49,762 bases of DNA from Bacteroidales bacterium (GTDB lineage Bacteria; Bacteroidota; Bacteroidia; Bacteroidales; UBA932), in assembly GCA_017934185.1 (NCBI GenBank), contig JAGBJY010000047.1, positions 1 through 49,762 on the forward strand, in the 5' to 3' direction. The notes beneath the pieces are model-generated. The model saw only the letters and a program-made list of their open reading frames with translations. It was not told the DNA's origin and did no database searches. Made by a program: the position numbers and the translations under genes. Positions 17,811 to 34,724 of this stretch are shown here, piece by piece. How positions within the stretch are numbered: position 1 is the first letter of the stretch; every line of letters starts with the position of its first letter.

Positions 17811-17835
17811 AAAGAGCACCGGAAAGTGCTCTTTT
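17811..17835. terminator. Bidirectional intrinsic terminator after the symporter gene
   Basis: AAAGAGCAC (17811-17819) and GTGCTCTTT (17826-17834) pair perfectly around a 6-nt loop, with A- and T-runs on both sides. It ends the symporter gene. Read on the minus strand it is placed exactly where the terminator of the tRNA-Leu gene would have been before the island inserted. Confidence 0.85.
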
Positions 17836-17854
17836 GTGCCCAGAGCGGGAATCG
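17834..17854. repeat. attL: left 21-bp direct repeat of the integrated island
   Basis: These 21 bases are identical to 34704-34724, which form the 3' end of the tRNA-Leu(CAA) gene. This left copy is a tRNA 3'-end fragment (acceptor strand plus T-arm half) with no tRNA body beyond it; sequence diverges right after 17854. Together with the adjacent integrase this marks the left junction. Confidence 0.93.
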
Positions 17855-17943
17855 GTATTTTAAACTGAAATAAACCGAGTTAAAGAAATATAAATTGTAA
17901 ATCAGTAGTTTATAAAACGGATAGACAAACCCGCTTCATAAAA

Positions 17944-17978
17944 GTTGTGCAAAATTGCAATTCTGTTGTGCAAAATTC
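17944..17978. promoter_or_regulatory. Putative integrase arm-binding repeats, left end
   Basis: GTTGTGCAAAATT occurs at 17944-17956 and 17965-17977, 21 bp apart (two helical turns). Related copies lie at the other end of the island (34627-34655), where the 14-mer TTCTGTTGTGCAAA of 17961-17974 is found again at 34627-34640 in the same orientation. The second left copy abuts the integrase -7 box at 17980-17987, so binding could also repress the integrase promoter. Confidence 0.7.
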
Positions 17979-17979
17979 G

Positions 17980-17987
17980 TATATTTG
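17980..17987 (+). promoter_or_regulatory. -7 box of the integrase gene
   Basis: TATATTTG matches TAnnTTTG and lies 22 nt before ATG 18010. It directly follows the second putative arm repeat. Confidence 0.65.
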
Positions 17988-18009
17988 CACAACGCTAAAT
18001 TGGACGCTT

Positions 18010-19395
18010 ATGGAACGGATTGTAATCTTTGCCAGGACAACGAAAACGGAAGGGGAAATCAGGCTTCGTTTCCGCCTTACGGACGGCCGCAGGGCCGACC
18101 TTTATCACAAGAGCAATATCAAGGCTTCGCTCACGGATCTTGCCAAATTCAACGTGGACGGTTCGCTCCGGCCGAAGGTCTCAGTGTACAACAAGCAACT
18201 GGAGGATGACATCACCCGTGAAATAGATGCCATGCGCCGGGCATACCGCCATCAGGTGGAAGCCGGGGAGATTGTGACGGCATCGGCCTTTGAGGAGGCG
18301 GTGGCAAAGGAACTCAACCCGGAGGTCATTGTCCGGAAGGAGGAGAATACACTCCTGAGCAAACTGGACAAATTCGTGGAAGACGGCTATCGGGACGGCA
18401 TCTTCGGCAAGAGCCGATACAAACACTATTCCGGCGTCCGGAACCGCATGAGTCGATACCTCCAGATCAACGGCCTTGAGGCAATGACGCCATCGGAATT
18501 TGACGATGACCAGATAATGAAGCTTCGGCAGTTCCTGTTTGACGAGTACCTCTACGTTCCCAAGCACAAACGCATTTACAAAGACCTGAAGAAGGTGGAA
18601 ATCCCCACCCGCCGCCGCGGCAGCAACACCGTTGCACATGAGATGAAGATGCTCATCACCTTCTTTAACTACCTGGAGAACAGGGACGATATCGTCAAGT
18701 CCCCCTTCCGCAAACTGGGAGCCGACCGCCGCAAGAAGATAACCCAGACCAAGGAAGACGATCCAATCTTCCTCACCATAGACGAGCTGGAAAAGGTGAT
18801 GGCTACGGAAGTGCCGGAAACGCTGCAGGAAACAAAAGACGCGTTCCTGGTCCACTGCGCCCTGGGTTGCCGAATCAGCGATTATAAGCGATTCAAAATG
18901 GAGCTTATCTTCGTAACTGACGAGGGAATTCCCTACATCCACTACCTTCCCAAGAAAACCAAGGGCTCCCAGACTAACTATAAGGAAATCAAGACTCCTT
19001 TGGTGCGCTATGCATTTGATATCATCAAAGCGCGGGATTTCCAGTTTCGGGTTATCTTTTACGAAGGTGGTAAGAGCGGGTACAACAAGAAGATTAAGCA
19101 GCTTCTGGAGCTTGCCGGCATAGACCGCCTGGTGCCCATCTACAATGAGAAGACCGGCGAGAACGAGTACTTCCCCCTGTGGCAGCGCGCCAGCAGCAAG
19201 ACCGCCCGCTCCACTTGCGTGGACATCATGGCCAAATACCAGATAGACATGTACGCCGCCGGTCTCCATCGCCGCGGCAGCAAGGCTGTAGAACGCTATA
19301 CCAACATGGAAGTACGAGATGACTTCGCTCTCCGCAACATTGCCTTCCGACAAAAGGCTTACAAAGTTGATAAGGATTTGAATGTGGTGGAATAA
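18010..19395 (+). CDS. Tyrosine recombinase / integrase of the island
   Basis: A 461-residue site-specific integrase expected to recombine the 21-bp att repeats at the tRNA-Leu 3' end. The N-terminal part (about 1-115) resembles an arm-type DNA-binding domain, followed by a SAM-like core-binding region and the catalytic domain. Candidate catalytic residues: Arg288 (LGCRISDYKRF), Lys397 and Arg400 (KTAR, where most relatives have HxxR), His420 (GLHRRGSKAVERY) and nucleophile Tyr430. The first box-II residue is therefore Lys, not His. ATG 18010 is chosen because the longer frame to 17947 crosses the promoter and arm repeats. It is the leftmost island gene and reads into the cargo. Confidence 0.93.
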   Translation: MERIVIFARTTKTEGEIRLRFRLTDGRRADLYHKSNIKASLTDLAKFNVDGSLRPKVSVYNKQLEDDITREIDAMRRAYRHQVEAGEIVTASAFEEAVAKELNPEVIVRKEENTLLSKLDKFVEDGYRDGIFGKSRYKHYSGVRNRMSRYLQINGLEAMTPSEFDDDQIMKLRQFLFDEYLYVPKHKRIYKDLKKVEIPTRRRGSNTVAHEMKMLITFFNYLENRDDIVKSPFRKLGADRRKKITQTKEDDPIFLTIDELEKVMATEVPETLQETKDAFLVHCALGCRISDYKRFKMELIFVTDEGIPYIHYLPKKTKGSQTNYKEIKTPLVRYAFDIIKARDFQFRVIFYEGGKSGYNKKIKQLLELAGIDRLVPIYNEKTGENEYFPLWQRASSKTARSTCVDIMAKYQIDMYAAGLHRRGSKAVERYTNMEVRDDFALRNIAFRQKAYKVDKDLNVVE

Positions 19396-19425
19396 ATGAT
19401 TATCTTCGCAGAAATATGAACCACT

Positions 19426-19785
19426 ATGCTCAATTCTCTTACCAAAGCTCAGAAAAAAGCCGCAAGAACCCTAATTGATATCGCGTTGGAGCGGGATTGC
19501 GCGAGCTTTATACAAAAAATATCCAAACTGGCTGAGAAACCGCTTAATGAGGTGGATAAGCCGAATCATGCACGTTACATAGAGCTGTATAAAGCGGTAG
19601 AGACTTTCGATAAGCATCTGGCAGACAGATACGACGGGATTACAGGGGGCAAATACTTTGACACGGTTTCCTACTTGCTTGCAGATGGCTGCCTAACAGA
19701 CGAGGACCTTTTGATATGTGACGAAATGATGAAAAGCGAATTGATTCGGGTGAAAGAAATCATATTACAAATTCGGAACAGATGA
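19426..19785 (+). CDS. Small helical protein of unknown function, first gene of a three-gene module
   Basis: A 119-residue, largely alpha-helical protein (MLNSLTKAQKKAARTLIDIALERD, SKLAEKPLNEVDKPNHARYIELYKAVETF) with no signal peptide or membrane helix. I do not recognise its family. It begins about 17 nt after a weak -7-like box (TATCTTCG, 19401-19408) and overlaps the next gene by ATGA, so it is translationally coupled to the DUF3843-like protein. Base composition becomes visibly AT-richer here than in the integrase gene or the backbone, suggesting separate origin. The position and coupling would suit an accessory or antidote subunit, but that is inference. Confidence 0.75.
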   Translation: MLNSLTKAQKKAARTLIDIALERDCASFIQKISKLAEKPLNEVDKPNHARYIELYKAVETFDKHLADRYDGITGGKYFDTVSYLLADGCLTDEDLLICDEMMKSELIRVKEIILQIRNR

Positions 19786-21311
19786 AACCACGGTTATTAT
19801 CGGTAAGGGATTACATACACTACCATCCCAAAGAACTATTGTTTGACACGGATGCGTATTATGCTGCATTGGCGAACAGATTTCAGACAGTTCTCTTTAG
19901 TACTATTGACAAAAGATTGTTTCCCGCCGAACTGGTCAGGGAGTTGTCTTTGCGGCTGACCGCCCATTTTGAAGATGTCGTTTCTGATTTTGGAATCTGG
20001 CGGTCTTTTTGCTGGCGTCATAAAAAACTTTACGGTTCCTATCTGCCCTTTGACTTGGCCGAGGATGATTTACCATTGGATGAATTGACCCGTGGTGGAA
20101 TTCACTTTATTGTTTGGACGGTATTTGTAGACCATCCAGACCGCCGGTTGGCATCGCCGTTAATGCCTGCGATGGCGAAAGTGGCACAACTTGCGTATGA
20201 TTTCTATCAGAGCGAATTCTATGATGCGCCAATAAACGAATCGCTCGCGTCATTTATTTACGACGATTCCACTCTTCGGGATTTTTATGCAGCCCGAAGA
20301 ATTCTGGAATGGCTGTCCCGTAGCACCTATCTTTCCAAATGGCACGAAACGGAAATCAGCTATTGGAAATGGCATGAAACCATAGGAGATGTCCTTGCCG
20401 ACCTTAAGAACAATGAGCATAAGTGGCATTATGCCGTTGATTCCGTATTTCCGTTTGTGGAAAAAGCCGGACCGCTGTCATTGTTCCCGCAGCAATGGTA
20501 TGCCGATATGTTGCATACGTACTCCACGAAAGAGTTTGGTGCCCAGGAAATAATTTTGGAAGAGATTTCGTTTCAACGTTTGAATACGTTTAAGATTCGC
20601 GGAGTTAAGGATGGTCAGTTATTATTGGTGAATGTCAAGGGAGAGATGTTATCCGTAGAAATGGATAGCTTTGGCGATGATTTGGGTGACGCTTTTGATG
20701 CCAACAATATCATTGTGGGGTCTATGGCAAAATTTGCCGGCAAGTGGAATATGGTCGGTTGTTCTGCATTCGCCAGAAGCGACTCCTATTTCGAAGACCG
20801 AGTGCTCCAACGAAAGAAAAGACATGAAGAGTATCAACGTACCATTGATTTGTATGAATCGGCAATACAAAGGTCTCACGGCCGTCGGCTGTTTTACTTT
20901 GAGAACTTTGATTCTTTTAAGATTTGGTTTAAGGACGTTGTCGGCATTCGAGGCGTTGATGCCGCCACTTCCACTTTCCATCAGGACATCAAAACAGGGA
21001 AGCAGTTTATGGTATATGTACCGCATGATGGAGACTTGGAATTCGCTTTTGGGTGCAGCGCGAACATCTCGGATCCGGGAAACCCATTTTACGACAGCAA
21101 AGAAGCTCGCGAAAATGCTATTTCAATGATAGACGCATACGGGACCATTTCTACGGAATGTCTGTATTATTTGATTGAGAACGGTTATCTTAAGGATGCC
21201 GCTTTCCCCGGACCGGACGAGGATGCCGGCAGATACATGTTACAAAGCAATCTGCACTTTATCTGTACCTTTTTCCGCCGCTGCAAAGTGATTTCTCCGC
21301 TTGACGATTAA
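19782..21311 (+). CDS. DUF3843-like protein
   Basis: A 509-residue, probably cytoplasmic protein resembling the Bacteroidetes DUF3843 family in its N-terminal pattern (HYHPKELLFDTDAYYAAL, followed by LTAHFEDVVSDFGIWRSF, HKKLYGSYLPF and IHFIVWTVF). The C-terminal part (about 370-500) has RLFYFENFDSFKIWFKDVVGIRG and DLEFAFGCSANISDPGNPFYDSKEA. No biochemical function is established for this family to my knowledge and I see no catalytic motif. It is coupled upstream (ATGA) and followed 4 nt later by a third module gene. The coding sequence is AT-rich against the flanks. Family recognition is from memory of the pattern and should be treated as moderate. Confidence 0.75.
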   Translation: MKPRLLSVRDYIHYHPKELLFDTDAYYAALANRFQTVLFSTIDKRLFPAELVRELSLRLTAHFEDVVSDFGIWRSFCWRHKKLYGSYLPFDLAEDDLPLDELTRGGIHFIVWTVFVDHPDRRLASPLMPAMAKVAQLAYDFYQSEFYDAPINESLASFIYDDSTLRDFYAARRILEWLSRSTYLSKWHETEISYWKWHETIGDVLADLKNNEHKWHYAVDSVFPFVEKAGPLSLFPQQWYADMLHTYSTKEFGAQEIILEEISFQRLNTFKIRGVKDGQLLLVNVKGEMLSVEMDSFGDDLGDAFDANNIIVGSMAKFAGKWNMVGCSAFARSDSYFEDRVLQRKKRHEEYQRTIDLYESAIQRSHGRRLFYFENFDSFKIWFKDVVGIRGVDAATSTFHQDIKTGKQFMVYVPHDGDLEFAFGCSANISDPGNPFYDSKEARENAISMIDAYGTISTECLYYLIENGYLKDAAFPGPDEDAGRYMLQSNLHFICTFFRRCKVISPLDD

Positions 21312-21315
21312 AAAT

Positions 21316-22728
21316 ATGGATAAGACAAAGCTTGACCGGGTTTTCAATTTGAATGAAGATAGCGACATATTATCGTTCATGAAAGACTATGCTTATAAGA
21401 ATCAGGCGTTAGGCACTGCTCTTATCAAGCATTTTCTTCCTGACAGGATTGATTTGGACTCGCTCAGAGAAGAAGTTCAAGACATCTTCTTTTCTGTTGA
21501 CGAGAGTGGTTATAAGTGGGGTCCGTCGTTGAACTGGCATCAAATAGATGAACAGTTGGGACGCATGATGGAAAAGGCTCGTTATTATGACTCTGAAGGC
21601 GAATTTGATGCTGCGGCATCCATCGCGTCTGAAATAATACTATTTGTCGGGGAGCATTATTCTGAGGACTGTGTATATGAATGCGAACGTTTTGACGGAT
21701 ATGATTTCGAGACCAGAAATGCAATAGAAATGTTAATATCGCTTGTGGAGTCTAAAGTACTGGATATCAACACGGTTAAAAGGATAAGAGGCGATCTCAA
21801 AAAAGCGGCAGCCACTGACACATTCAGTAATGGTGGGTATTGCCTGGCCGATTTGGATGAAGTTAAGAGTGTTCTGGATGGCGTATTTGATGATTTTGAC
21901 AAGCATCTGGCTTCGCTTGACGAGCGTATAGAAAACGCCGGACGCGGTATCTATTATCGGAATCGCTGGCTGCTTAGGAAGGTCTTGTATCTTATTTATA
22001 AAGAGAAATATGACGTTGCTGAAAAGACTATAGATGACAACTTTTCCGTACCCGAATTGTCCAAGTTACGGATAGATTCTCAGGTGTTTCATGGCAAGAT
22101 AGAAGATGCAATTACGTCATTGGACAGGGCTATCTTATGCACGGAAGACTCTTCTTATGTGAGCAAATGCCATGAAAGAAAAAAAGAACTGCTGGAATCT
22201 ATAGGAGATAATGTACGTCTGGCAAATGAACTTGAGTACTTGCTTTTGAACAGCTATTCCTCATTATACGACTATTATCTCCAGCTAAAAAGCGTTTTGG
22301 CGCAGTTGCCGGGCAATTCGCAAAGCCGGCTTCAGGGTACTATTGTTATGATGGTAGACAAGAAACTTGTACACTGTCAGAAGGAAATAGCCAGGATATG
22401 CGCTGAAGAGCGGATGATTCCGCAATTGGCAGAGTGTCTGTCCTGGAACAATGACTATAATAATGAATGCTATCAGGTATTAGCAGAGTATGGCCTGTTA
22501 CTGGATTCTGAAACCAGACGAAGAATTGTTGCAGGACATATCGATGCTATCCGAAGGAGCGCAATACCTACAAATAGCCAAAGGTATGGCTATATTGTCA
22601 GCCATATGGAAGCGTTGAGAGATTCTTGTGAGGAGGGGCGGATTGCAATAGACAGCTTAATTGAAGAGTTCAGGGTAACATACAGCCGCCGCCCGTCAAT
22701 GATGAGAGAGTTGAAAAAACTTTGCTAA
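21316..22728 (+). CDS. Large helical-repeat protein of unknown function, third gene of the module
   Basis: A 470-residue protein composed mostly of amphipathic helices in TPR/HEAT-like spacing, for example MMEKARYYDSEGEFDAAASIASEIILF and KAILYLIYKEKYDVAEKTI-type units. The C-terminal end FRVTYSRRPSMMRELKKL resembles the tail of proteins that carry SWIM zinc fingers, but no SWIM Cys/His motif is present here, so at most this is the repeat region of such proteins. A TTG at 21301 would extend it by five residues; ATG 21316 is preferred. It follows the DUF3843-like gene by 4 nt and ends before the AlbA_2 gene promoter. Probably a partner or scaffold of the module; function unknown. Confidence 0.72.
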   Translation: MDKTKLDRVFNLNEDSDILSFMKDYAYKNQALGTALIKHFLPDRIDLDSLREEVQDIFFSVDESGYKWGPSLNWHQIDEQLGRMMEKARYYDSEGEFDAAASIASEIILFVGEHYSEDCVYECERFDGYDFETRNAIEMLISLVESKVLDINTVKRIRGDLKKAAATDTFSNGGYCLADLDEVKSVLDGVFDDFDKHLASLDERIENAGRGIYYRNRWLLRKVLYLIYKEKYDVAEKTIDDNFSVPELSKLRIDSQVFHGKIEDAITSLDRAILCTEDSSYVSKCHERKKELLESIGDNVRLANELEYLLLNSYSSLYDYYLQLKSVLAQLPGNSQSRLQGTIVMMVDKKLVHCQKEIARICAEERMIPQLAECLSWNNDYNNECYQVLAEYGLLLDSETRRRIVAGHIDAIRRSAIPTNSQRYGYIVSHMEALRDSCEEGRIAIDSLIEEFRVTYSRRPSMMRELKKLC

Positions 22729-22749: not shown

Positions 22750-24552
22750 ATGGGACGAGTGAACATAAAAGAACTGCTAATGTACGGTGAGCGCCTTACG
22801 CTGGAATGTAAGGCGGCAAAAAATGCCTTGCCCAATGCTGTATGGCCCACATACTCTTCTTTCTGCAACACTGTGGGAGGCGTTATGCTCTTGGGAATTG
22901 AGGAGGATTTGGAAGAGCCTGACCGGAGCAAGCGGTTTACCATCATGGGCGTTCATAATCCAGCCAAGATTATCAAGGAATTCTGGGATACAATCTATAG
23001 CGACAAAGTCAACGTCAATGTCTTGAAGGATGACGATGTCTATGAGGACGAAATAGACGGCGTGAAAATTATCGTTATCATTGTCCCGCAGGCAGGGTTT
23101 CTCAACAAGCCGGTCTATATCAATGGGAATCCCTTCAAGGGTACGTTCAAGCGCAATTTCGAGGGAGACTACCACTGCCCTGAATCTGAAATCAGGGCGA
23201 TGATTCGTGATGCCAACGAGGATGGCAATGATGGTGTGCTGCTGGAGAATTATACCATTGATGATATAGATTTGGCGTCGGTCCACGGATATCGTAACCG
23301 CTTTCAGAGCAGGCATCCCGGCCATGTATGGAATTCCGATGACGACGTTACTTTCCTTCGAAACTTCGGTTGTTTTGGCACAGACAGGAACACCGGGAAA
23401 GAGTGGCTTACCGTCGCCGGCCTCATGATGTTTGGCAAGGGCCTTCCGATTCGGGAACGGATGTCCCAAATCCGTCTGGATTATGTGGACCAGACCAATC
23501 TTCTGCCAGGAAGCCGGTATAGCGACCGCCTCACATACGATGGCCGATGGGAAAACAACCTCTATAATTATTTCTCCATCGTGGTTCCCAAAATCACCTT
23601 TGACATCAAAACCCCTTTCGTGCTCAAGGGTGTGGAAAGAGAGGACGATACGCCGGTGCATAAGGCTGTACGCGAAGCCTTTACCAATATGATTATCCAC
23701 TCGGATCTAATGATTACCGGAGTGTTTAAGGTGGTTAAACAGGACCATTGCTTAACGTTTTCTAATCCGGGTACGCTGAAACTTCCGCTGGAAAGAATCT
23801 ATCACGGCGGGGCGACCAAAGCCAGAAACCCGCGCTTGCAGAACTTGTTCAGAATGATAGGGCTCGGAGACAATCTCGGCTCCGGCTTCCCGACCATTCT
23901 TTCTGCGTGGAGAGACGAGAAATGGAAGCGTCCTGACTTACAGGAAGACTTTGATTTGCGCCAAGTGGACTTGAAACTTTGGATGGTGTCGCTATTCCCT
24001 CCGGAGGCAATTGAGCATATGCGGCACTTGCTCGGGGAGAAATTCGATAGCCTGTCTTCAGATGAGCAGGCGGTTTTGGTGACAGCATTTCTGGAAGAAG
24101 AAATCAACAGTCCCAGAATACAGACACTGCTGGACAAGAATGTCCTTGAGGTGGGGAAATTGCTTTTCCATTTAACGAATCTTAGTTATTTGGTTTCTGC
24201 AGGACGTGGACGCGGGACCACCTATAGTGTTACTTCCATGCCCGTAAGTAACATTAACGGGAATGAAATTAATATTAACGGCGAAAAAATTAACATTAAC
24301 GAGAGCGAAATTAACATTAAGGGCTCGCGAATTAACAATAACGAGCATCAGATAATAATCGCATTGCGGGAAAAGGTTCTGGAGTTTTGCGTTGAGCCGC
24401 ATACTGTAAAAGAGATTCTTGATCATATTGATAGAACGAATCAGTACCGGAATGTGCAGGTCTTTATCAAGGCGCTTGTAGAACAAGGCCGCCTCGTCCC
24501 TGAAGATTCGGCCAAGAAGCGTAATGTCAGATATATGGTTCCAAAGAAATGA
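22750..24552 (+). CDS. AlbA_2/Schlafen-type putative nucleic acid-binding protein with HATPase-like C-terminal region
   Basis: A 600-residue protein of the widespread 'ATP-binding/RNA-binding domain (AlbA_2, formerly AAA_4)' group. The N-terminus has LTLECKAAKNALPNAVWPTYSSFCNTVGGVMLLGIEED (family pattern ExKxa...AFaNt.GG.lliGv.d), followed about residue 300 by REAFTNMIIHSD and LTFSNPGTLKL, GLGDNLGSGFPTI, as in RecG-like HATPase_c_4 regions. At about 500-535 is a tandem 7-residue repeat (INING-type). The C-terminal 60 residues look like a winged helix. Relatives are often proposed regulators or defence/stress proteins, but few are tested. It has its own promoter and overlaps a small membrane protein by ATGA. 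Confidence 0.83.
   Translation: MGRVNIKELLMYGERLTLECKAAKNALPNAVWPTYSSFCNTVGGVMLLGIEEDLEEPDRSKRFTIMGVHNPAKIIKEFWDTIYSDKVNVNVLKDDDVYEDEIDGVKIIVIIVPQAGFLNKPVYINGNPFKGTFKRNFEGDYHCPESEIRAMIRDANEDGNDGVLLENYTIDDIDLASVHGYRNRFQSRHPGHVWNSDDDVTFLRNFGCFGTDRNTGKEWLTVAGLMMFGKGLPIRERMSQIRLDYVDQTNLLPGSRYSDRLTYDGRWENNLYNYFSIVVPKITFDIKTPFVLKGVEREDDTPVHKAVREAFTNMIIHSDLMITGVFKVVKQDHCLTFSNPGTLKLPLERIYHGGATKARNPRLQNLFRMIGLGDNLGSGFPTILSAWRDEKWKRPDLQEDFDLRQVDLKLWMVSLFPPEAIEHMRHLLGEKFDSLSSDEQAVLVTAFLEEEINSPRIQTLLDKNVLEVGKLLFHLTNLSYLVSAGRGRGTTYSVTSMPVSNINGNEININGEKININESEINIKGSRINNNEHQIIIALREKVLEFCVEPHTVKEILDHIDRTNQYRNVQVFIKALVEQGRLVPEDSAKKRNVRYMVPKK
24247..24351 (+). repeat. 21-bp tandem repeat encoding an Ile-Asn-rich heptapeptide
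   Basis: Within the AlbA_2 gene, five diverged units (attaacattaacg plus variable bases) encode NINGNE, ININGEK, ININESE, INIKGSR and INNNEHQ. The unit is 7 codons. It links the HATPase-like region to the C-terminal winged-helix-like end. Confidence 0.8.
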
Positions 24553-24809
24553 CCTGGCTCGACATCATAACGCCCATTCCCAAAACGCTCATCCCGGACG
24601 ATGAGCGGCGAAGGGGTGTGAACAGAGGCTTTCTCATTGCGGCGGCACTCATCCTGCTATTTCTTTTCATTTACTGGCTGTTCAAGGATTTGGCGGGAAT
24701 CACTGACGCCTCCAGGCATCCGTACCTGCTCGTCCTTCTGGAGCTGGCCAAGGTTCTGGCCGGGCTAATCATATATCTCCCTGAAATCCGAGAAGCCGTC
24801 TCAATCTGA
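24549..24809 (+). CDS. Small membrane protein
   Basis: An 86-residue protein with two hydrophobic segments: GFLIAAALILLFLFIYWLF at about 27-45 and YLLVLLELAKVLAGLIIYL at about 59-77, joined by a short polar turn. Its start overlaps the stop of the AlbA_2 gene (ATGA), so the two are co-translated. I do not recognise a family. A membrane partner of the AlbA_2 protein is a possible role, by analogy with other effector/membrane pairs; that is inference only. Confidence 0.7.
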   Translation: MTWLDIITPIPKTLIPDDERRRGVNRGFLIAAALILLFLFIYWLFKDLAGITDASRHPYLLVLLELAKVLAGLIIYLPEIREAVSI

Positions 24810-24852
24810 GACCTCACCAGAGATAGACCTTTCCCAGCCGGACCCTCTTGCG

Positions 24853-25182
24853 GTGCGGGACCTTTTCGTCGAGGGGACCAAACAATACGTCATTTCCAAC
24901 CTGTATGATTGGATAGTTCTGGATGGCAACCGGACAGGCCCACAGCTGGCATACCTTTATATCGCACTCACCAAGAATCACCTCATCGAAAGCAAAAGCC
25001 CCAGTAAACTCCTGGAGGCGCTGGAGAACACCTATCCCGATTTGAAGTTCGCCTCGTGGAGCACCCTTCGCCACGCTTATTCCGATATCAAGACCCGTCC
25101 GGAGGGCCGGGTAAGGAAAGAGGACCAGGCAAAAGCCGATGCTATCTTCAAGACACTGACAGTGTCAAAGCCGCCAAAGTAG
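24853..25182 (+). CDS. Hypothetical protein with RteC-like C-terminal pattern, uncertain start
   Basis: A 109-residue product from GTG 24853; the frame is open upstream to about 24769 without an ATG, so the real start is uncertain. The conserved-looking part is ISNLYDWIVLDGNRTGPQLAYLYIALTKNHLI followed by SPSKLLEALENTYP and a charged helix. The pattern (short helix-turn-helix with G-x-x-x-x-L-x-x-L-Y-x-A-L) recalls the C-terminal region of RteC-type and related Bacteroides element proteins, but the match is weak and I would not assign the function. It reads on from the small membrane protein gene and ends before the terminator at 25274-25304. Confidence 0.55.
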   Translation: MRDLFVEGTKQYVISNLYDWIVLDGNRTGPQLAYLYIALTKNHLIESKSPSKLLEALENTYPDLKFASWSTLRHAYSDIKTRPEGRVRKEDQAKADAIFKTLTVSKPPK

Positions 25183-26395: not shown

Positions 26396-28150
26396 ATGCA
26401 CCGGATAGGGACATATTGTGCAATGGTTGTAGCCGGCCTGATGATTTTGGCAGGTTGCGCCGGTGGAAGCATGCGCGGGAAACGGATGCTCCAGGCTGCA
26501 GATTCGCTCTATACTGAAGAGCGGGCGATGGCTATCTATGACTTGCTGCCGGAACGGGCACTGCAGATCCTTGATTCGGCAGAGATAGTCGGCAACCTGC
26601 CGGACTATCGTGCCGGTCTCTTACGGGCGAAGGTGCTCAGCTGTTCTTACACTATGCAGCAGCAGGACTCGGCCATCATCATCTGCGAGGCCCTGCTGCG
26701 TCATGACGAGGCTCTGCACAACGCCGATTTCCGGCAGGACCTGTATGAACTGCTGCTGAATGCCGCGCGGCGGCGCTGTGACTATGAGGAGATGGTACGC
26801 TGGGGCACAGAACTCTCCGGGCTGCTGCGCGGAGAAGGATTGGAGACAGAGGCGCTGCGCACCGATGCCGAACTGGGACTCGCCCTGACGCACATCGGAC
26901 AGGCGGACGAGGGTCTGGCGAAAATCGACAATGCCATCCGTCAATTGGGCAGTACAAGGAAATTCAACGAATTCGATGCCTGGCTGATTGCCGTGAAGCG
27001 CAAGATAGCCGTGCTGCAGGAGCAAGGGATCCGGATGGAGCAGGTCATCACGCTGGCCGACCTCATGCAGCAGCGGCTCGACGACTTTGTCTCTCATGCC
27101 GATGACTACCATGACGGCACCTACCGTGAGCCTGCCGAAGACGACGTTCCCGGTTATCACGACTTCTACCATGCTCAAGCCACAGGCTACAAGGCTGCTG
27201 CCTATGTCGTTTCAGGCGACCGCCAGGCCGCCCGGCGTGAGGTGGACACATTCCTGCGGTCATCCTACGGTCAGACGCTCGACGGCCGCTATTCGGTTGC
27301 GCCGATGATGGCTGCGCTGGGTGACTACACCGCCATGCTGTCCACTTACGATGAAGCTGAGCGCCATATGCTTTCCGAGGGCGACACCCTGAACGGTATC
27401 TATGCCAGCATACTCCGTGGCCGCGCCGAAGCAGCCAGTGCTTCCGGTCACACGACCCAAGCCTACGACTACCTCAGCCGCTACGAGGCACTGGAGAGCC
27501 AACTGAATGACCGCCTTCAGCGCAGCAAGGCCCACCTCTATGCCGCCCGTTACCACGCCCAGGAGCAGCAGTTGGAGATACAGCAGCGCAAGTCCGAGGC
27601 CAATCGCAATCTGATGCTCGCCGTGGCCGCCATCCTCTTCGCCCTCCTGGCCACAGGCTTTGCCCTCTATTATTTCCGTCAGCAACGCATCATCCGGAAG
27701 AAGAATCGCGTGCTCGTGGAACAGATGAATGAGGCCGTAGCATATAGAAAGTTGTATGAGAGCCAGGATTTGACCTGGATTCCTCAAGAGGATAAGCCCC
27801 TTAACGCTTTGGCCCCCGACGAACTGTCGAAGTATCTCCGCGCCGTCATCCTCCGCGAACGTCTTTACCTCAATGTGCAGTTCGACCGTCAGGCGGCGAT
27901 TGACTACTTCCATCTGTCTAAGGAGCGCATCGGTGCCGCCTTCTCACAGGACAGCGAGTACACCACGATAGCCGACTTCGTCAACCACTGCCGTCTGGAG
28001 TATGCCAAGGAATTGCTCGCCACCAGTCCCGGAATGACGGTTGACGACATTGCCTCTGCCTCCGGCTTCGGCACCCGCCGTACCTTCAGCCGCCTCTTCA
28101 AGGAGCGTTACTCCATCACCCCCACCGAGTACCGCAACCAGAACTGTTGA
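26396..28150 (+). CDS. Membrane-bound TPR protein with C-terminal AraC-type DNA-binding domain
   Basis: A 584-residue one-component regulator. The N-terminus carries a lipoprotein-like signal (MVVAGLMILAGC); residues about 35-390 are helical TPR repeats, expected in the periplasm; one transmembrane helix follows (LMLAVAAILFALLATGFALYYF, near 405-427); and the C-terminal 100 residues are an AraC HTH (YTTIADFVNHCRLEYAKELL, VDDIASASGFGTRRTFSRLFKERY). This layout is common in Prevotella and relatives and couples an outside signal to transcription. No kinase or receiver domain is present. It stands directly upstream of the surface-lipoprotein cluster and is its likely regulator. Start is uncertain: TTG 26393, ATG 26396 or ATG 26423. 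Confidence 0.88.
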   Translation: MHRIGTYCAMVVAGLMILAGCAGGSMRGKRMLQAADSLYTEERAMAIYDLLPERALQILDSAEIVGNLPDYRAGLLRAKVLSCSYTMQQQDSAIIICEALLRHDEALHNADFRQDLYELLLNAARRRCDYEEMVRWGTELSGLLRGEGLETEALRTDAELGLALTHIGQADEGLAKIDNAIRQLGSTRKFNEFDAWLIAVKRKIAVLQEQGIRMEQVITLADLMQQRLDDFVSHADDYHDGTYREPAEDDVPGYHDFYHAQATGYKAAAYVVSGDRQAARREVDTFLRSSYGQTLDGRYSVAPMMAALGDYTAMLSTYDEAERHMLSEGDTLNGIYASILRGRAEAASASGHTTQAYDYLSRYEALESQLNDRLQRSKAHLYAARYHAQEQQLEIQQRKSEANRNLMLAVAAILFALLATGFALYYFRQQRIIRKKNRVLVEQMNEAVAYRKLYESQDLTWIPQEDKPLNALAPDELSKYLRAVILRERLYLNVQFDRQAAIDYFHLSKERIGAAFSQDSEYTTIADFVNHCRLEYAKELLATSPGMTVDDIASASGFGTRRTFSRLFKERYSITPTEYRNQNC

Positions 28151-28476: not shown

Positions 28477-29862
28477 ATGAAGAAGTATTTTGTTTGGGCT
28501 TTCATCGTTCTCGCGTCACTGGTGTCCTGCGGGAAAGAAGTCCCGGGGAAACCGGATGAGACGGGCGAGGCCGTGGTGTTCAACCTGGAAGCCGTCCACC
28601 CGGACGGGGCTGACACCAAGGCCGTGAAAACAGGTTGGGACAACGGAGATGTCATTTTTGTGTTCTTTAACAAGGCGGCAGCGCCGAACTACTTGAAAAT
28701 GACTTATGACGGTTCCTCCTGGACCAGTTCCGAATATGCCGGGGCCACGGCAACGCCCGGTACCCTCGGCTTGAAAAACGGCGATACGGGAACGATGCGT
28801 GCCGTCTATCTGCCTTTCGGCGGCGAGGAGACGGTTTCGGCCGACGGAACCTCATTCGTGTTCGGCAATACTGATTACACCTATTATTTGACAGCGACAC
28901 TCCCTTATACGGTCGAAGACAACAAGGTCAGCGGCGCTTTCGACATGGCCATTCCCGAGGGCTACGTGCAGTTCTTTGTGGAGTATTCCGAACCCCTGAG
29001 TCCTGCAGAACTCCGCGAACCGCATCTGACTCCGCAGGGCATCGCCCGTATCGATGGTGAAGGCAATATCGTTACCAAAGCCCTCGCCCACGGCGCCCCG
29101 CTCCCGGGGTATGTCTATCAAAACGGGTTCCTCTTCAGCGGCATCCTGGCCGAAGATGCGAGGGGTGTGAGCACCGATTACCATTTCACCTGGGTGTATA
29201 AGAACAGCCTGGGCTTCAAGTATTATTCCTATTTTGAGAAAGACTTCACCGGAAAAACGCTCCATACGGATGCTACCCATGGCCGCGCGGTGAAGCTTCC
29301 AAACGGGAAAACCGGCTGGGACGGTATCAAATACTACAAGCCCGTCGACATCGGCTGCGACGTGGACGGCCGACGTATTTACTGGGCCAGCCGCAATGTC
29401 GGTGCGAAAAAAGACTTCCCCGAAAACTATACAGATGACGGGCTGAAGGAGACTTGGGGGGATTACTATACTTGGGATGGAGCCGTAGACATCATTGCAA
29501 ATGACGATTATTTGGGCTCCAAGTGGCACTTGCCGACAAGGGAGGAGTGGGAAGCGATAAGGAGCTACAACGTGACCTATGAGGATTCACAAAAAGGCTG
29601 TCTGCTGAAAAGTCAAGACTTCGGGACGCAACTTTTCTTCCCCCTTGCCGGGCGTTATAAAGATGTATCTTATGATTACGAATATTCTCCCGACGAGCTC
29701 TATAAATGTGCTTATTATTGGTCAGCCACTTTTGCTGAAAATGGTATGCATGACCCTATGTATTGGATTTCTGCTAATGAATATCCTTGGAATGATCCAA
29801 CATTCGGTGAAAATACAAGCGACAAACGCACGAAGATGTCCGTCCGGGCAGTTCGCAATTAA
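28477..29862 (+). CDS. Fimbrillin-like / Fib_succ_major surface lipoprotein 1 of the island
   Basis: A 461-residue lipoprotein (signal MKKYFVWAFIVLASLVSC). Residues about 30-290 resemble fimbrillin-like N-terminal domains (VKTGWDNGDVIFVFFN, YDGSSWTSSEYAG); residues about 290-461 are a Fib_succ_major paralogous domain with DGRRIYWASRNVGA, ETWGDYYTWDGA, WHLPTREEWEAI, FFPLAGRY, AYYWSATFAENG and MSVRAVRN. Such proteins are exposed at the cell surface; binding partners are unknown. A strong Shine-Dalgarno AAGGAGG (28465-28471), unusual in this phylum, precedes the ATG by 5 nt. A LolA-like gene follows 11 nt later. It is paralogous to 30559-31932 and to chromosomal genes near the window end. Confidence 0.85.
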   Translation: MKKYFVWAFIVLASLVSCGKEVPGKPDETGEAVVFNLEAVHPDGADTKAVKTGWDNGDVIFVFFNKAAAPNYLKMTYDGSSWTSSEYAGATATPGTLGLKNGDTGTMRAVYLPFGGEETVSADGTSFVFGNTDYTYYLTATLPYTVEDNKVSGAFDMAIPEGYVQFFVEYSEPLSPAELREPHLTPQGIARIDGEGNIVTKALAHGAPLPGYVYQNGFLFSGILAEDARGVSTDYHFTWVYKNSLGFKYYSYFEKDFTGKTLHTDATHGRAVKLPNGKTGWDGIKYYKPVDIGCDVDGRRIYWASRNVGAKKDFPENYTDDGLKETWGDYYTWDGAVDIIANDDYLGSKWHLPTREEWEAIRSYNVTYEDSQKGCLLKSQDFGTQLFFPLAGRYKDVSYDYEYSPDELYKCAYYWSATFAENGMHDPMYWISANEYPWNDPTFGENTSDKRTKMSVRAVRN

Positions 29863-29873: not shown

Positions 29874-30506
29874 ATGAAAAAGATTCTTATTTCCCTTTGG
29901 GCAGTCATGTTTGCTGCAAGCGTCCTCCTCGCGCAGACCCCGGAGGAGATTATTGCCAAAATGAACCAGGAGGCCGATCGTTTTGATACGGAAGGGGTTT
30001 CGATGGTCATGGATATGAAGATTCCTTTGCTTGGCACCTATTCCATACAGATGTTCATGCTGGGCGAAAAAAGCAAGGGCATCGTTAATCTCGAGGGCGA
30101 CCGCTCCATCATATGGTCCGACGGCATCACGGACTGGGATTACGATGCTTCCAAGAACGAACTCACCATCAAGTATGCCGATTCCTCCGCCAAAACTGAC
30201 AACGCGAATGACAATGTCAAAGCCATCAAAAACGTTGCGGAAGGGTATGATGTAGTATTAAAGAAAGAAACTTCGGAAGCCTGGTATTTTTTGTGCAAAA
30301 AATCCAGGTACAATCCCAACAAGGACGACCCTAAGAGAATGGAACTGGTTGTCTCCAAATCTACTTTTCTTCCCATCAGCACGAGCATCAAGGAGAAAGG
30401 CGTTACGGTGACCCTGCGTGATTTCGCCATCGGCGTCACGGAAGAAGAGGTAACCTTCGACCCTGCCAAATATGCCCATGCCAAGATAATTGATACCCGC
30501 TTCTAG
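29874..30506 (+). CDS. LolA-like periplasmic protein
   Basis: A 210-residue exported protein (signal MKKILISLWAVMFAASVLLAQ). The segments SMVMDMKIPLLGTYSIQMFMLGEKSKGIVNLEGDRS, IWSDGITDWDYDASKNELTIKY and the C-terminal DPKRMELVVSKSTFLPISTSIKEKGVTVTLRDF fit the LolA/LppX half-barrel fold that carries lipoproteins or lipids through the periplasm. As a second copy besides any chromosomal lolA, it may serve the lipoproteins of this cluster, between two of which it sits; that is inference. It begins 11 nt after the first Fib_succ_major gene and is probably co-transcribed with it. Confidence 0.78.
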   Translation: MKKILISLWAVMFAASVLLAQTPEEIIAKMNQEADRFDTEGVSMVMDMKIPLLGTYSIQMFMLGEKSKGIVNLEGDRSIIWSDGITDWDYDASKNELTIKYADSSAKTDNANDNVKAIKNVAEGYDVVLKKETSEAWYFLCKKSRYNPNKDDPKRMELVVSKSTFLPISTSIKEKGVTVTLRDFAIGVTEEEVTFDPAKYAHAKIIDTRF

Positions 30507-30558
30507 TCCGACAACTGATGTAACTTTATTTTTACACATTACATAATATCAATTTATT

Positions 30559-31932
30559 ATGAAAAAAACATGCTTATTACTTTGCATGGCTGTAGCCCTA
30601 ATGGCTTGCGGCGAAAAGATTTACATCCCGAAGGATGACCCTCCCCAGAAGGTAGGCGCTCCGATGACCTTCAATGTGACCGCGTCTGAAACAAATGCCG
30701 TGAAGGGTGCCTGGGCGGACGGAGACAAGATTTTTGTATTCTTCAACGCGCTGGAGACCAAGTACCTGGTTCTGGAGCGCCGCGGCGGCAGCTGGATCAG
30801 CAAATCCGGCGGCGGCACGCTGATGGATTCCGACTTCTCCGGCCTCGGCACCAAGAAACTCACGGCCGTCCATTTCCCCGTGTCTGTGGATGTAGCATAT
30901 GCCGACGGCAAGTTCTCCTTCGCCAGCGGCGGAAAGCCGGTGTACAACTATTACCTCTTCGAGAAGGACAAGGAGTACACCGTCAGCGGCACCACGGTCA
31001 CGGCCACCCTTTCGATGGGCAGGCCTGCCGATCTGGCGCAGATCCGCGTGGCTGACATTCAGGGCAAAGTATCCGACTACACCTTCGGCTGTTCGAAGAT
31101 CAAGCCTGTTGCTTGCGCGAGTGTGGGCACTGATGGAGTCATCACCGAGAGTGTCCTGCAGGACGGAGCCCGTCTAAGCGGTGTGGCCGGTGCCGACGGG
31201 GGCATCTTTGCCGGACGGCTCACCAAGCCGGGTGAGCCTGCAGATTATGTTTTCACGCTGGCCAGCGACACGCATATCTACACCCTGACCCGCTCGGACA
31301 ATACTCTCACGGCCGACGCGGTGCTCAATTTCCCGGCACCGACCATGACCGGCGGCGCCAATTGGGAGGTCCGGAATGCATCCGACCTCTACGTGGACCT
31401 GGGCGTTGAAGTAGGCGGCAAGAAGATTTACTGGACCAAATGCAACCTCGGTTCCAACACCGAGACCGGCTACGGTGATTTCTTCTCTTGGGGAGAACTT
31501 ACCAGCGACAACGGGGGCAAGACGAACTTCGGTTCGGGCAACTACCTCTGGAGCGGCACACCAAGCTTCACCATACTCTCGCCGGAGAATGATGCGGCCT
31601 ATGCTGCATTCGGCGGAAAGTTCCGCATGCCCACGAAAGCCGAAATCGATGCGTTGCTTGCCCTGACAAAAAAATGGGTTACCAACTACAAAGGCAGCGG
31701 CGCCAATGGTTACGAGTTTACCGGCAATGGCAACACCCTCTTTCTTCCCGCCGCAGGATACCGCTACAATGAGAGCCTCTTAACTGCCGGCACCTACGGC
31801 TATTACTGGTCTTCTTCAATCAATACGGGCTACGAGAGCTACGCGTGGAACATCAACCTCGGTTCGGGAGTTATCAAATGCGACGACCACAGCCGTTACC
31901 TTGGGTACTCTGTCCGACCCGTCTCGGAATAA
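30559..31932 (+). CDS. Fimbrillin-like / Fib_succ_major surface lipoprotein 2 of the island
   Basis: A 457-residue lipoprotein (signal MKKTCLLLCMAVALMAC). The N-terminal domain is paralogous to the first island lipoprotein (VKGAWADGDKIFVFFNALE, GGSWISKSGGG), and the C-terminal Fib_succ_major domain has GGKKIYWTKCNLGSNTETGYGDFFSWGEL, FRMPTKAEIDALLAL, FLPAAGYRYNESL, GYYWSSSINTGYESYAWNI and YSVRPVSE. It likely sits on the cell surface; ligand unknown. It follows the LolA-like gene after 52 nt and lacks the small peptide frame that precedes lipoprotein 1. Confidence 0.85.
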   Translation: MKKTCLLLCMAVALMACGEKIYIPKDDPPQKVGAPMTFNVTASETNAVKGAWADGDKIFVFFNALETKYLVLERRGGSWISKSGGGTLMDSDFSGLGTKKLTAVHFPVSVDVAYADGKFSFASGGKPVYNYYLFEKDKEYTVSGTTVTATLSMGRPADLAQIRVADIQGKVSDYTFGCSKIKPVACASVGTDGVITESVLQDGARLSGVAGADGGIFAGRLTKPGEPADYVFTLASDTHIYTLTRSDNTLTADAVLNFPAPTMTGGANWEVRNASDLYVDLGVEVGGKKIYWTKCNLGSNTETGYGDFFSWGELTSDNGGKTNFGSGNYLWSGTPSFTILSPENDAAYAAFGGKFRMPTKAEIDALLALTKKWVTNYKGSGANGYEFTGNGNTLFLPAAGYRYNESLLTAGTYGYYWSSSINTGYESYAWNINLGSGVIKCDDHSRYLGYSVRPVSE

Positions 31933-31986
31933 CCGTGCAAATCAAGCAGAGAACCAAGGAACAAATATCGTAAATGTATTCCAAGT

Positions 31987-32541
31987 ATGCGGAAACTGCT
32001 TGTCGTAATCGCTCTCATATCTTGTACCCTATGCGGGGCGCAGGAAAAATCCCCCAGGCATCTGGTCCGGCTGGGATGGGGCGACATGCTCTTCGAGACA
32101 CTGGCGTTCCATCCCACAGGGAACACATCCGGATATGGTTATACCGGACATGTTTTTGCCGATTACCACTATTCTCTCACAAGAGTTGTAAGCGTGGGCG
32201 CGCAAATAGATTTTCAAGGTATCTTCTGGACAGAAGACGCTTCCCGGCGCTCCCGGAATTATGACCTTTGCATCCTGCCGTCGGCCCGTTTCACCTGGCT
32301 GGACAAACCATGGGTGCGGCTCTATTCCGGCCTGGGCGCAGGCGTGCTTTTCGCTTTTGACAACGCCGGAGAACATGCTGCCCTTCCTGTTTTCAACCTG
32401 AACTCCATTGGCGTCCAGATCGGAAAGGGCAGGTGGAGCGGTTTCATCGACTTGGGCTTTATGGTAGCCATAAAAAACGTGAGTCAGGTGTACATGGTGG
32501 GTTCCCGCCTAGTGTCTGTAGGTGTTAATTATCGTTGGTAG
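31987..32541 (+). CDS. Small outer-membrane beta-barrel protein
   Basis: A 184-residue exported protein (signal MRKLLVVIALISCTLCGAQ). The rest alternates hydrophobic and polar residues in about eight strands with aromatic ends (GYGYTGHVFADYHYSL, SVGAQIDFQGIFW, RFTWLDKPWVRLYSGLGAGVLFAF) and ends in VGVNYRW, a typical barrel C-terminus recognised by BAM. Size suggests an eight-stranded barrel. It precedes the lipase-like gene by 3 nt, so the two are co-transcribed. Function unknown. Confidence 0.75.
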   Translation: MRKLLVVIALISCTLCGAQEKSPRHLVRLGWGDMLFETLAFHPTGNTSGYGYTGHVFADYHYSLTRVVSVGAQIDFQGIFWTEDASRRSRNYDLCILPSARFTWLDKPWVRLYSGLGAGVLFAFDNAGEHAALPVFNLNSIGVQIGKGRWSGFIDLGFMVAIKNVSQVYMVGSRLVSVGVNYRW

Positions 32542-32544
32542 CCT

Positions 32545-33774
32545 ATGAAGAAACTGGTATTAGCCGCTCTTTCGGCATTCGCCTTATGTGCCTGCCATCA
32601 CCCGGAAGTGGAATTTGTGGATTTTGACACTTTTCATGTGACCTCCGTCAAGTCTGCGGATGTTTTCATGAGCGACGGCAGCCTGAATCCAGAAATCCGT
32701 GTCATGGAGAACTCGGAGCCGGAAGATTATGATAACGTTCCGACCAAACTCGCCTATGCAAATGCCAACAGCATTGTACGGGACCTTTTGGGGGTTATAA
32801 ACAGCAACCGGCTTATTCATATTGCCGGCACCTACACCGGCCACGATGTTGACGGCAGTCCCATTACCCTTTCCGGTAAACTGCTTCTTCCGGAGAGCGG
32901 TCCCGTCAAGAACTTGATGATTGTCAGTCATTATACCATCGGCGCCAATTACGAGGCTCCTTCGGAAACTTTCCCCATGGAAGGCATCTGGGCTGCAAAA
33001 GGCTATGCTGTTGTCATTGCCGACTACATCGGCTTCGGGGTTACGGCAAAACGCATTCACCCATATATGCACGTAGAGAGTACGGCACGGTCGGTGGTGG
33101 ATATGGCGCTGGCAGTGAAGCCATATCTGGAACATATCGGCCGCAAGCCGGAAAGCGAAGAAGTTATCCTGGCAGGCTATTCCCAAGGCGGAGCCACTAC
33201 ATTGGCCGTGATGGATATGCTTCAAGATGATTATGCCGACGTTTTCCCGATAAAGAAAGTCTATGCTGGCGGCGGTCCTTATGACCTGGCCGCCACCTAC
33301 GATATTTCCATGGAATGGGATCAGACCGGTATCCCCTGCGCCATTCCCATGATTGTGCAGGGAATCAATGAAGGGGAGCATCTTGGCCTGGAGATGTCCG
33401 ATTTCTTTCTTCCCGACCTGCTTGCCCACTACGATCACTGGATCAATTCCAAGTCTTACACGGTGAAGGAAATCAATACCCTCATGAATGCCACCGCCCT
33501 GCATGAAATCATGACCGAAGGAGGCCGGGACAAGCACAACAGGGAGACAGCCCGGCTGTATCAGGCGCTTCTTGGTAATGGGGTGCTGCATTTTTCCCCG
33601 CACGCACCCATCTACCTGTTCCACAGCACCCAGGATCGGACTGTGCCTTTTGTGAATGCCCTCAAGGCTGAGCTTTGGTTCAAAAACAGGGACGTGCAAT
33701 ACGATTTCGGAGAGTACGGCAAACATGGGACCGGCTGTGTGCGGTTTTTGATCAATGTGTATAAGGACCTATGA
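32545..33774 (+). CDS. Exported alpha/beta-hydrolase lipoprotein (lipase/esterase-like)
   Basis: A 409-residue lipoprotein (signal MKKLVLAALSAFALCAC, lipobox LCAC) of the secretory lipase-type alpha/beta-hydrolases. The nucleophile elbow is GYSQGGATTL; an oxyanion-region SHYTIGANYEAPSETFPM precedes it; the catalytic His is probably in GKHGTGCVRF and the Asp in STQDRTVPF. Substrate is unknown: the family includes triglyceride lipases and esterases acting on plant or host esters. It is tightly packed between the small barrel gene (3 nt) and the next lipoprotein gene (ATGA overlap). Confidence 0.83.
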   Translation: MKKLVLAALSAFALCACHHPEVEFVDFDTFHVTSVKSADVFMSDGSLNPEIRVMENSEPEDYDNVPTKLAYANANSIVRDLLGVINSNRLIHIAGTYTGHDVDGSPITLSGKLLLPESGPVKNLMIVSHYTIGANYEAPSETFPMEGIWAAKGYAVVIADYIGFGVTAKRIHPYMHVESTARSVVDMALAVKPYLEHIGRKPESEEVILAGYSQGGATTLAVMDMLQDDYADVFPIKKVYAGGGPYDLAATYDISMEWDQTGIPCAIPMIVQGINEGEHLGLEMSDFFLPDLLAHYDHWINSKSYTVKEINTLMNATALHEIMTEGGRDKHNRETARLYQALLGNGVLHFSPHAPIYLFHSTQDRTVPFVNALKAELWFKNRDVQYDFGEYGKHGTGCVRFLINVYKDL

Positions 33775-34616
33775 GAAAACTATTGTATTTGTGTCTGGCA
33801 GGGCTGGTAACCTTGGGGTGCAGCAAAGAAAAAATGGTCACATCGGCCTGTGACTTTGAATTGAAGGTGGATTGGGTGAAAGGGAGCCGGGCACAGTTTT
33901 CTGTGACGCCGGCCATAGAGGGTGCGACATATGCCTACATTGTGATTTCGGATGACCACTCACAGTACGGCAGGAACGACACGGAAATCATCGCCTATCA
34001 GATGAATTGGCTGCGCACCATTTATTCCGATCTGCAAAAAGAAGGTGACGTATCAGGATCCTTTTCCGACATCTGCTGTTTCAAGGGGCCCCGTACGATC
34101 AAAAGCAAGTTCTTGTCGTCGGACAAAGACTATGAACTGCTGGTTTTTCAAGTGAATCCCGAGACGGATCAACCCATCGGTCCCTTGTACACATGTGCTT
34201 TCCATACCAAACCTATTCCCAAAGTGGACCTGGGTTTTACCGTCCGGTATCAAGACAATATGTTCTACATCCAACCCGAAGACAAAACGGTCCGCTGGTT
34301 CTGGGAGTATGAGTTGGATGACAAGATCCAGGACGTCTACGACGACCCGTTCATCTTTTTATACGAGATTATTGACATGTATGATGAATACGGTTTTCTG
34401 GAGCATGCCCTCTGCCTGGGTGACCAGTCATGGGAACTGCCCCGCGACGATCGTTCCATCAAGGAAGGCGCCTCCTATACGTTAGCACTGTCTGCATGTA
34501 CGACGGAGGGAGAAATCTGTTCGGATGTAATGTATGCCGGTTTTACTTTTCAGAACGGTAAGATTTCTTTTACCTATGCCGATTTCCCAGTAGAGTCTTT
34601 GACCCCACTCGATTAA
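33771..34616 (+). CDS. Uncharacterised lipoprotein, last gene of the island
   Basis: A 281-residue lipoprotein (signal MRKLLYLCLAGLVTLGC). Residues about 25-150 look like a fibronectin-III-like beta-sandwich (FELKVDWVKGSRAQFSVTPAIEGATYAYIVIS, DYELLVFQVNP); a second, similar region follows (VDLGFTVRYQDNMFYIQPEDKTVRWFWEYEL). I do not recognise a named family. It overlaps the hydrolase gene by ATGA and ends 11 nt before the right-end arm repeats, so the cluster runs right up to the island end. Confidence 0.75.
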   Translation: MRKLLYLCLAGLVTLGCSKEKMVTSACDFELKVDWVKGSRAQFSVTPAIEGATYAYIVISDDHSQYGRNDTEIIAYQMNWLRTIYSDLQKEGDVSGSFSDICCFKGPRTIKSKFLSSDKDYELLVFQVNPETDQPIGPLYTCAFHTKPIPKVDLGFTVRYQDNMFYIQPEDKTVRWFWEYELDDKIQDVYDDPFIFLYEIIDMYDEYGFLEHALCLGDQSWELPRDDRSIKEGASYTLALSACTTEGEICSDVMYAGFTFQNGKISFTYADFPVESLTPLD

Positions 34617-34626
34617 ATGCCTGGGG

Positions 34627-34655
34627 TTCTGTTGTGCAAATGTCGTGCAAAATTC
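34627..34655. promoter_or_regulatory. Putative integrase arm-binding repeats, right end
   Basis: TTCTGTTGTGCAAA (34627-34640) is identical to 17961-17974 at the left end, and GTGCAAAATTC (34645-34655) repeats the core of the same motif 11-13 bp further on. Orientation is the same at both ends. This supports the motif as recombinase or accessory-factor binding sites. Confidence 0.68.
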
Positions 34656-34661
34656 AAATAA

Positions 34662-34700
34662 TAATCCGCAACTAATTCATTAAGAATTTGTTGCGGATTA
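34662..34700 (-). terminator. Long hairpin at the right end of the island, likely terminator of tRNA-Leu
   Basis: TAATCCGCAAC (34662-34672) and GTTGCGGATTA (34690-34700) pair perfectly; inside, AATTC and GAATT pair again around ATTAA. On the minus strand the stem is followed by a T-rich tract, so it can end the tRNA-Leu transcript, replacing the original terminator now left 17 kb away at 17811-17835. It could also be part of the recombination site. Confidence 0.65.
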
Positions 34701-34703
34701 ACC

Positions 34704-34724
34704 TTGTGCCCAGAGCGGGAATCG
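34704..34724. repeat. attR: right 21-bp direct repeat, inside the tRNA-Leu 3' end
   Basis: Identical to 17834-17854. It covers the discriminator, the 3' acceptor strand and the 3' half of the T-arm of the tRNA-Leu gene plus three bases beyond, so the inserted element restores a complete tRNA gene. Confidence 0.93.

Follow-up and report, generated by a model that had tools for sequence, protein, structure and literature searches.

The window analyzed here is the whole 49,762-nucleotide stretch of contig JAGBJY010000047.1 from a Bacteroidales bacterium of the UBA932 lineage (GCA_017934185.1, a metagenome-assembled genome (MAG) in 62 contigs, 85.8% complete). It holds an island beside a tRNA-Leu(CAA) gene. 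A preliminary description, made from the sequence alone, had proposed that this island is one element integrated at the tRNA 3' end, bounded by a perfect 21-bp repeat, with a unit length of 16,870 bp, a tyrosine recombinase at the left end and a drop in GC in part of the cargo. All of these individual features were borne out. The repeat, TTGTGCCCAGAGCGGGAATCG, is exact in both copies (Table 1), no third copy was found in the window at up to three mismatches, and about 6e-8 chance copies of the 21-mer are expected there (first-order Markov estimate). ARAGORN placed an intact tRNA-Leu(CAA) gene at the right end, and 19 of the 21 repeat bases are its 3' end. The unit length is indeed 16,870 bp, and GC falls to 0.449 between 19422 and 24548 vs 0.586 and 0.608 in the flanks.

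Comparison with relatives narrowed the attachment (att) site. The two bases preceding the core are unlike between attL and attR in the genomes G037, G019 and G361, hence the shared core is the 19-bp GTGCCCAGAGCGGGAATCG, and the two further repeat bases in the window are probably a coincidence. Allowing one mismatch, the window's own assembly contains the core twice, only at these two att places, and an 18-base pattern extending deeper into the tRNA once. The right end is therefore the intact tRNA and the left end a copy of its 3' end.

The frame next to attL is open from 17947 (GTG) to 19395; the conserved protein begins at the ATG at 18010 and has 461 amino acids. It matched phrog_1 integrase (2e-11) and a XerD model (NCBIfam, 2e-5, far under the model cut-off), and had no Pfam match at E≤1e-3. 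Residues R288, K315/K316, R400, H420 and Y430, which we take to be the catalytic positions of a tyrosine recombinase, are invariant in all five aligned integrases. Matches at E≤1e-3 were present in 65 of 200 genomes of the genus (the window's included), mostly remote; within this sample only G037 (88%) and G019 (86%, gene cut by the contig end) exceeded 80% identity besides the window. The integrase of G361, a genome outside the sample, is also 88% identical. In a search of 400 genomes, at least five, the window's included, had matches that extended as far as the arm region (query position 28), among the matches listed. Between G361 and G019, the integrase is unchanged over 363 amino acids and its DNA is 98.5% identical over 1,357 bp, whereas the o656 proteins of the two hosts are only 78% identical, which argues for recent transfer between species.

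Both island ends carry the short motif TTGTGCAAA, with five exact copies in the window (both strands) vs 0.53 expected. Four of these lie at the ends, at 17945, 17966, 17984 (inverted) and 34632. Arm-like repeats at both ends are the usual layout of integrase arm sites. The left-hand sites are conserved in all five aligned left ends and the right-hand pair is kept in five of seven aligned right ends; the integrase is predicted to bind these sites.

Hairpins mark the two ends as well. A hairpin with terminal T residues directly adjoins the attL core, and none of 200 mononucleotide shuffles scored as high (a simple score of our own was used throughout). At element-free sites of relatives, a hairpin lies 0–9 bases off the tRNA 3' end in 12 of 12 cases (three bases or fewer in 11), and at most 4 of 200 shuffles reached the score of any of them. 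The right ends have a different hairpin, 5–9 bases from the core, which is alike in the window, G037, G019, G309, G361 and G302. This arrangement suggests that the element separates the tRNA from its old terminator and brings a new one.

Twenty regions were fetched from relatives; they were picked from matches, not at random. Twelve are element-free at tRNA-Leu(CAA), in line with the empty sites foreseen by the preliminary description. Five have element ends (G037, G309, G361 and two contigs of G019), and the rest comprise G302, with an element-type hairpin but no arms, G363, cut at the tRNA, and one further flank from G037. A relative with the symporter terminator placed immediately after the tRNA had also been anticipated, and none was found: the nearest are G097, with the symporter ~0.8 kb from the tRNA and no element seen, and G293, with sufB ~140 bp from it. 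G019 and the window have the same symporter as their left neighbor. Across the genus, separate matches to the N-terminal ~75 residues of the long symporter frame overlie sufB, which is encoded on the opposite strand, and were set aside.

G037 (12.05 kb) and G361 (10.7 kb) have complete elements, each flanked by two att sites and with other cargo. Together with L103, a roe deer MAG sequence (Bacteroidales by its title, integrase 96%) that stops 0.4 kb past mobC and so leaves the right end outside, they have the order int, bay-1 gene, DUF6043, HTH_17, a frame of 167–218 amino acids (HTH_36 in L103), a 210-amino-acid gene and mobC. In bay 1, G037 has a YhcG-type nuclease, whereas G361 and L103 each have a BRO-N gene. 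The bay-2 cargo of G037 comprises an OmpA-like protein and proteins of the fimbrillin type; that of G361 comprises an EcoRI-type methylase, a GmrSD/HNH protein and a protein with BspA repeats. As judged from these sequences, the family is a shared backbone with two exchangeable cargo bays. The window keeps int, DUF6043, HTH_17 and a mobC remnant in the same order, and lacks the HTH_36 and 210-amino-acid genes between HTH_17 and mobC. Its DUF6043 and mobC are frameshifted; the integrase, att sites, arms and HTH_17 are without a break. Some of the breaks may be assembly errors.

Collectively, these results make it very probable that the island is an integrative element inserted at tRNA-Leu(CAA) by its own tyrosine recombinase. 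The grounds are sequence-based: the att sites, the arm-like repeats, the sites free of the element, the backbone that it has in common with complete elements of other species, and integrase DNA that is nearly identical between two different species. In the proposed mechanism, the recombinase would recombine the 19-bp core of a circular form with the tRNA-Leu(CAA) 3' end, so that the right end (attR) would keep the intact tRNA and the left end (attL) would have a core copy beside the old terminator. The HTH_17 protein would act as the excision factor, and the right-hand hairpin would serve as the tRNA's new terminator. Since mobC is present and no relaxase was recognized, cell-to-cell transfer would need the machinery of another element. 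With mobC and DUF6043 broken and two backbone genes missing, the element is partly decayed; the window copy is probably still able to excise, and probably unable to use its own mobilization gene, mobC.

Several observations weigh against this interpretation. Profile support for the integrase is weak, and a search of solved structures gave no match for the protein. Of the five exact TTGTGCAAA copies, the one at 30291 is within the cargo; one right arm is altered in G361, and G302 has no right arms. No circular form was seen. Finally, G314 has o184-lipase-o281 beside the same tRNA-Leu(CAA) without an integrase. Retention of the segment in place without the integrase had been named beforehand as telling against a single element, and G314 shows it in part, for these three bay-2 genes only. 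The broader claim that everything between the repeats, including the surface-lipoprotein cluster, is one element thus stands with a reservation: the backbone order seen in G037, G361 and L103 and the right-end arms and hairpin of the same family support it, and the G314 block, the partial decay and the failure to find a relative with the symporter terminator right after the tRNA qualify it.

Table 1. Features of the island and its ends (positions in the window).
Feature	Position	Strand	Basis
Hairpin directly adjoining the attL core; presumed terminator of the uninterrupted site	17810..17835		Shuffles; same-place hairpins in 12/12 element-free sites
attL (core 17836-17854)	17834..17854	+	Exact repeat; comparison with relatives
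Three arm-like TTGTGCAAA sites (17945, 17966, 17984 inverted)	17945..17992		Conserved in 5/5 aligned left ends
Tyrosine recombinase (integrase), 461 aa; frame open from 17947	18010..19395	+	PHROGs, NCBIfam, alignment
o119, bay 1, no family found	19426..19785	+	Profile searches
DUF3843 protein, bay 1	19782..21311	+	Pfam 4e-64
o475, bay 1, no family found	21301..22728	+	Profile searches
AlbA_2-like / HATPase_c_4 protein, bay 1	22750..24552	+	Pfam; phrog_12156 DNA helicase 3e-39
DUF6043 gene, frameshifted	24549..25182	+	Comparison with relatives
HTH_17 protein, excisionase-like, open frame, 95% identical to L103	25272..25664	+	Pfam; phrog_66 excisionase 2e-8
mobC remnant, frameshifted, 90% DNA identity to G037 and L103	25661..26201	+	Comparison with relatives
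AraC-type regulator, bay 2	26393..28150	+	Profile searches
FISUMP-domain lipoprotein-like protein, bay 2	28477..29862	+	Below curated cut-off
LolA-like protein, bay 2	29874..30506	+	Below curated cut-off
Lcl_C-domain protein, bay 2	30559..31932	+	Below curated cut-off
o184, first gene of the o184-lipase-o281 operon, bay 2	31987..32541	+	Relatives' loci
Secretory-lipase-like alpha/beta hydrolase, bay 2	32545..33774	+	Profile search, tree
o281, bay 2	33771..34616	+	Relatives' loci
Two right-hand arm-like sites (TTGTGCAAA and a one-mismatch variant)	34632..34654	+	Alignment of right ends
Hairpin brought by the element, next to the tRNA 3' end; presumed replacement terminator	34665..34697		Likeness among right ends
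attR (core 34706-34724)	34704..34724	+	Exact repeat; comparison with relatives
tRNA-Leu(CAA), intact target gene	34706..34790	-	ARAGORN

The same evidence can be arranged in other ways. The broken mobC and DUF6043 and the two missing backbone genes would also suit a fixed, dead island in which the integrase and att sites look intact and excision has been lost. We regard this as a serious, if somewhat doubtful, possibility, given that the integrase, the arms, both cores and HTH_17 are unbroken and that some of the breaks may be assembly errors. Accretion would instead make the island a composite, in which an element with bay 1 came to lie next to another tRNA-adjacent block (bay 2 or o184-lipase-o281) and the inner att site was later lost. 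The G314 block, the unlike GC of the two bays and the relics of earlier elements beside the site in G361, G309, G037 and G147 would all fit such a history; in G361 and G309 these are an int C-terminus with o119-o475-AlbA and without DUF3843, and in G037, G309 and G147 BRO-N-like genes adjoin the site. However, no inner core was found: matches between the ends at up to six mismatches numbered 2, against a mean of 2.0 in 20 shuffles. Moreover, the place of bay 2, after the mobC remnant and before the right arms, is one at which G037 and G361 too have cargo, and we consider a composite origin unlikely. Fusion of two tandem elements was also considered and dropped, as the window DUF6043 starts as in complete elements; the shared order int, bay 1, DUF6043, HTH_17, mobC, bay 2 speaks against it too.

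Integrase- and helicase-like PHROG matches, and remote integrase matches in three phage records, might hint at the remnant of a prophage or phage satellite. This is very improbable: phage structural and packaging families were absent from the 15 island frames scanned with Pfam and from the 7 left-half frames scanned with PHROGs, a close-relative search found no relative in viral contigs, and the backbone includes mobC. Searches of phage and plasmid records gave three and four remote matches, respectively, at 24–43% identity. A chance repeat or a chimeric assembly might be suspected in a MAG of so many contigs, but the number of copies expected by chance and the same architecture in the separate assemblies of G037, G361 and G019 leave it a negligible prospect.

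Several named classes were compared with the element. Conjugation (type IV secretion system) genes were absent from the 15 island frames (Pfam, E≤1e-3), unlike in an integrative and conjugative element (ICE), and the integrase frame is intact, unlike in a cis-mobilizable element (CIME), which keeps its att sites and has lost its integration genes. A relaxase family was likewise absent from these frames and from those of the complete elements, for which 9 frames in G037 and 4 in G361 were themselves scanned and the other G361 frames judged by their homologues; the elements may have a relaxase of a novel type. NBU1 is a Bacteroides integrative and mobilizable element (IME) at a tRNA-Leu 3' end with a tyrosine integrase and a MobP relaxase (PMC5704250). 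The window element resembles it as a small mobilizable Bacteroidales element with the same integrase type and target, a likeness by description and not by integrase sequence, and differs in having no recognized relaxase; hence it is not a canonical IME such as NBU1. MTnPi4 of Prevotella intermedia is described there as a tyrosine-integrase element at a tRNA-Leu 3' end (PMC5704250), and elsewhere as sitting in a tRNA gene (PMC4755523); compared by description only, it too is like the window element in integrase type and tRNA-Leu 3' end. The iOriT elements are relaxase-less, helper-dependent integrative mobilizable elements (PMC11389934), with an origin of transfer (oriT) as their defining feature. 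The window element, a candidate member, shares with them an integrase and the lack of a recognized relaxase; it differs in that its family has retained mobC, a gene that is broken in the window. By analogy, the window element would integrate as NBU1, MTnPi4 and iOriT elements do. A literature search turned up no paper on DUF6043, DUF3843 or integrative mobilizable elements at Bacteroides tRNA-Leu.

Bay 2 also includes the o184-lipase-o281 operon. A lipase match at E≤1e-60 is present in 70 of 300 genomes, the window's included, and in 19 loci of relatives the lipase has both o184 and o281 beside it in 16 and one of them in 3 (two of these cut short). In a tree of 22 lipases, the island copy groups with G314, G148, G229, G264 and G011 (99/97). 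A second operon copy, of a different clade, lies on contig C37 of the window's own assembly (G000:C37:846-2027, L174), and its lipase groups with G141, G154 and G126 (100/100). Between the island and G314, the lipases are 83% identical, and the o656 proteins 75%, whereas in the other compared pairs the lipase excess over o656 is at most ~4 points and often negative, so that the island copy is probably foreign. The operon in the island is thus probably a foreign second copy of one common in the genus, as judged by sequence comparison; contamination of the MAG may also account for it. The o656 tree did not resolve the placement of the window's host. In G314, o281, lipase and o184 directly adjoin tRNA-Leu(CAA) at L096 (G314:C1) 7133-9770. 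This is the only lipase copy of that genome at E≤1e-40, and the regions read had no integrase match and no second core at up to five mismatches.

Bay 1 of the window, to which the GC of 0.449 belongs, contains o119, DUF3843, o475 and an ATPase gene whose AlbA_2 score is just under the Pfam cut-off and whose product gave one weak, RecG-related match among solved structures. Within this gene, at 24246-24350, 21-bp tandem repeats encode an N-I-N-rich repeat of seven residues. At E≤1e-15, o475 was present in 3 of 300 genomes (the window's, G288 and, as a 37% relative, G067), with further matches in G309 and G361. DUF3843 matches were found in 4 of 260 genomes, the three besides the window's at 23–25%. 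Relatives of the AlbA protein occur more often, in 23 of 300 genomes at E≤1e-60, and at 19 of their loci neither o119 nor o475 occurred within ~1.5 kb on each side. The bay-1 core seems, in this small sample, to be tied to such elements. PADLOC matches were weak (0.0027 for the AlbA protein, 1.6e-5 for the HTH_17 protein), so a defence role for bay 1 is something that we infer: the bay possibly carries phage-defence genes.

A related element appears, from its core, to use tRNA-Leu(UAA) as a target. In L103, the attL core reads GTGCCTCGGGCGGGAATCG, a sequence that forms the tRNA-Leu(UAA) 3' end in G037, and G019 has the same core with the arms and hairpin of the window's element family. The tRNA-Leu(UAA) gene of G019 may be both split by an intron and an integration site. 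In G288, o119-DUF3843-o475-DUF6043-HTH_17 follow tRNA-Leu(UAA), but no AlbA gene, no TTGTGCAAA and no integrase were found before the contig end, so this locus may be rearranged or a different element. We can picture a relaxase-less family with closely related integrases acting at the 3' ends of two tRNA-Leu isoacceptors, CAA and UAA, in which every insertion gives the interrupted tRNA gene a terminator hairpin of its own. The bay-1 module, o119-DUF3843-o475 (joined in the window by an AlbA-type ATPase), would be an undescribed anti-phage system traveling with the elements; as a whole this picture is speculative and, in our estimate, rather unlikely. Two further observations concern these tRNA-Leu(UAA) loci. 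At L181 (G019:C24) 1226-1429, a group I intron model matched over its full length with 47 bits (gathering score 50, E 4e-10), and ARAGORN found no tRNA beside the tRNA-Leu(UAA)-type core in G019:C24. At L204 (G288:C70) 4487-4640, the tRNA-Leu(UAA) 3' half is duplicated in tandem ~61 bp on, like an integration footprint.

These comparisons document a mobile-element family in a Bacteroidales genus that is large and mostly uncultured. At a single tRNA site, the elements introduce genes for surface proteins and fimbrillins, genes of restriction type and possibly genes for defence. One of them also contains, as a second and probably foreign copy, an operon that is common in the genus.

Outside the island, a second GC dip (0.483, 0.443) was noted at 44001-46000, around a 691-amino-acid minus-strand frame (43731-45806). 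Exact repeats of 20–31 bp, ~1,020 bp apart, occur at 48082-49577 and are probably paralogous or duplicated gene segments.

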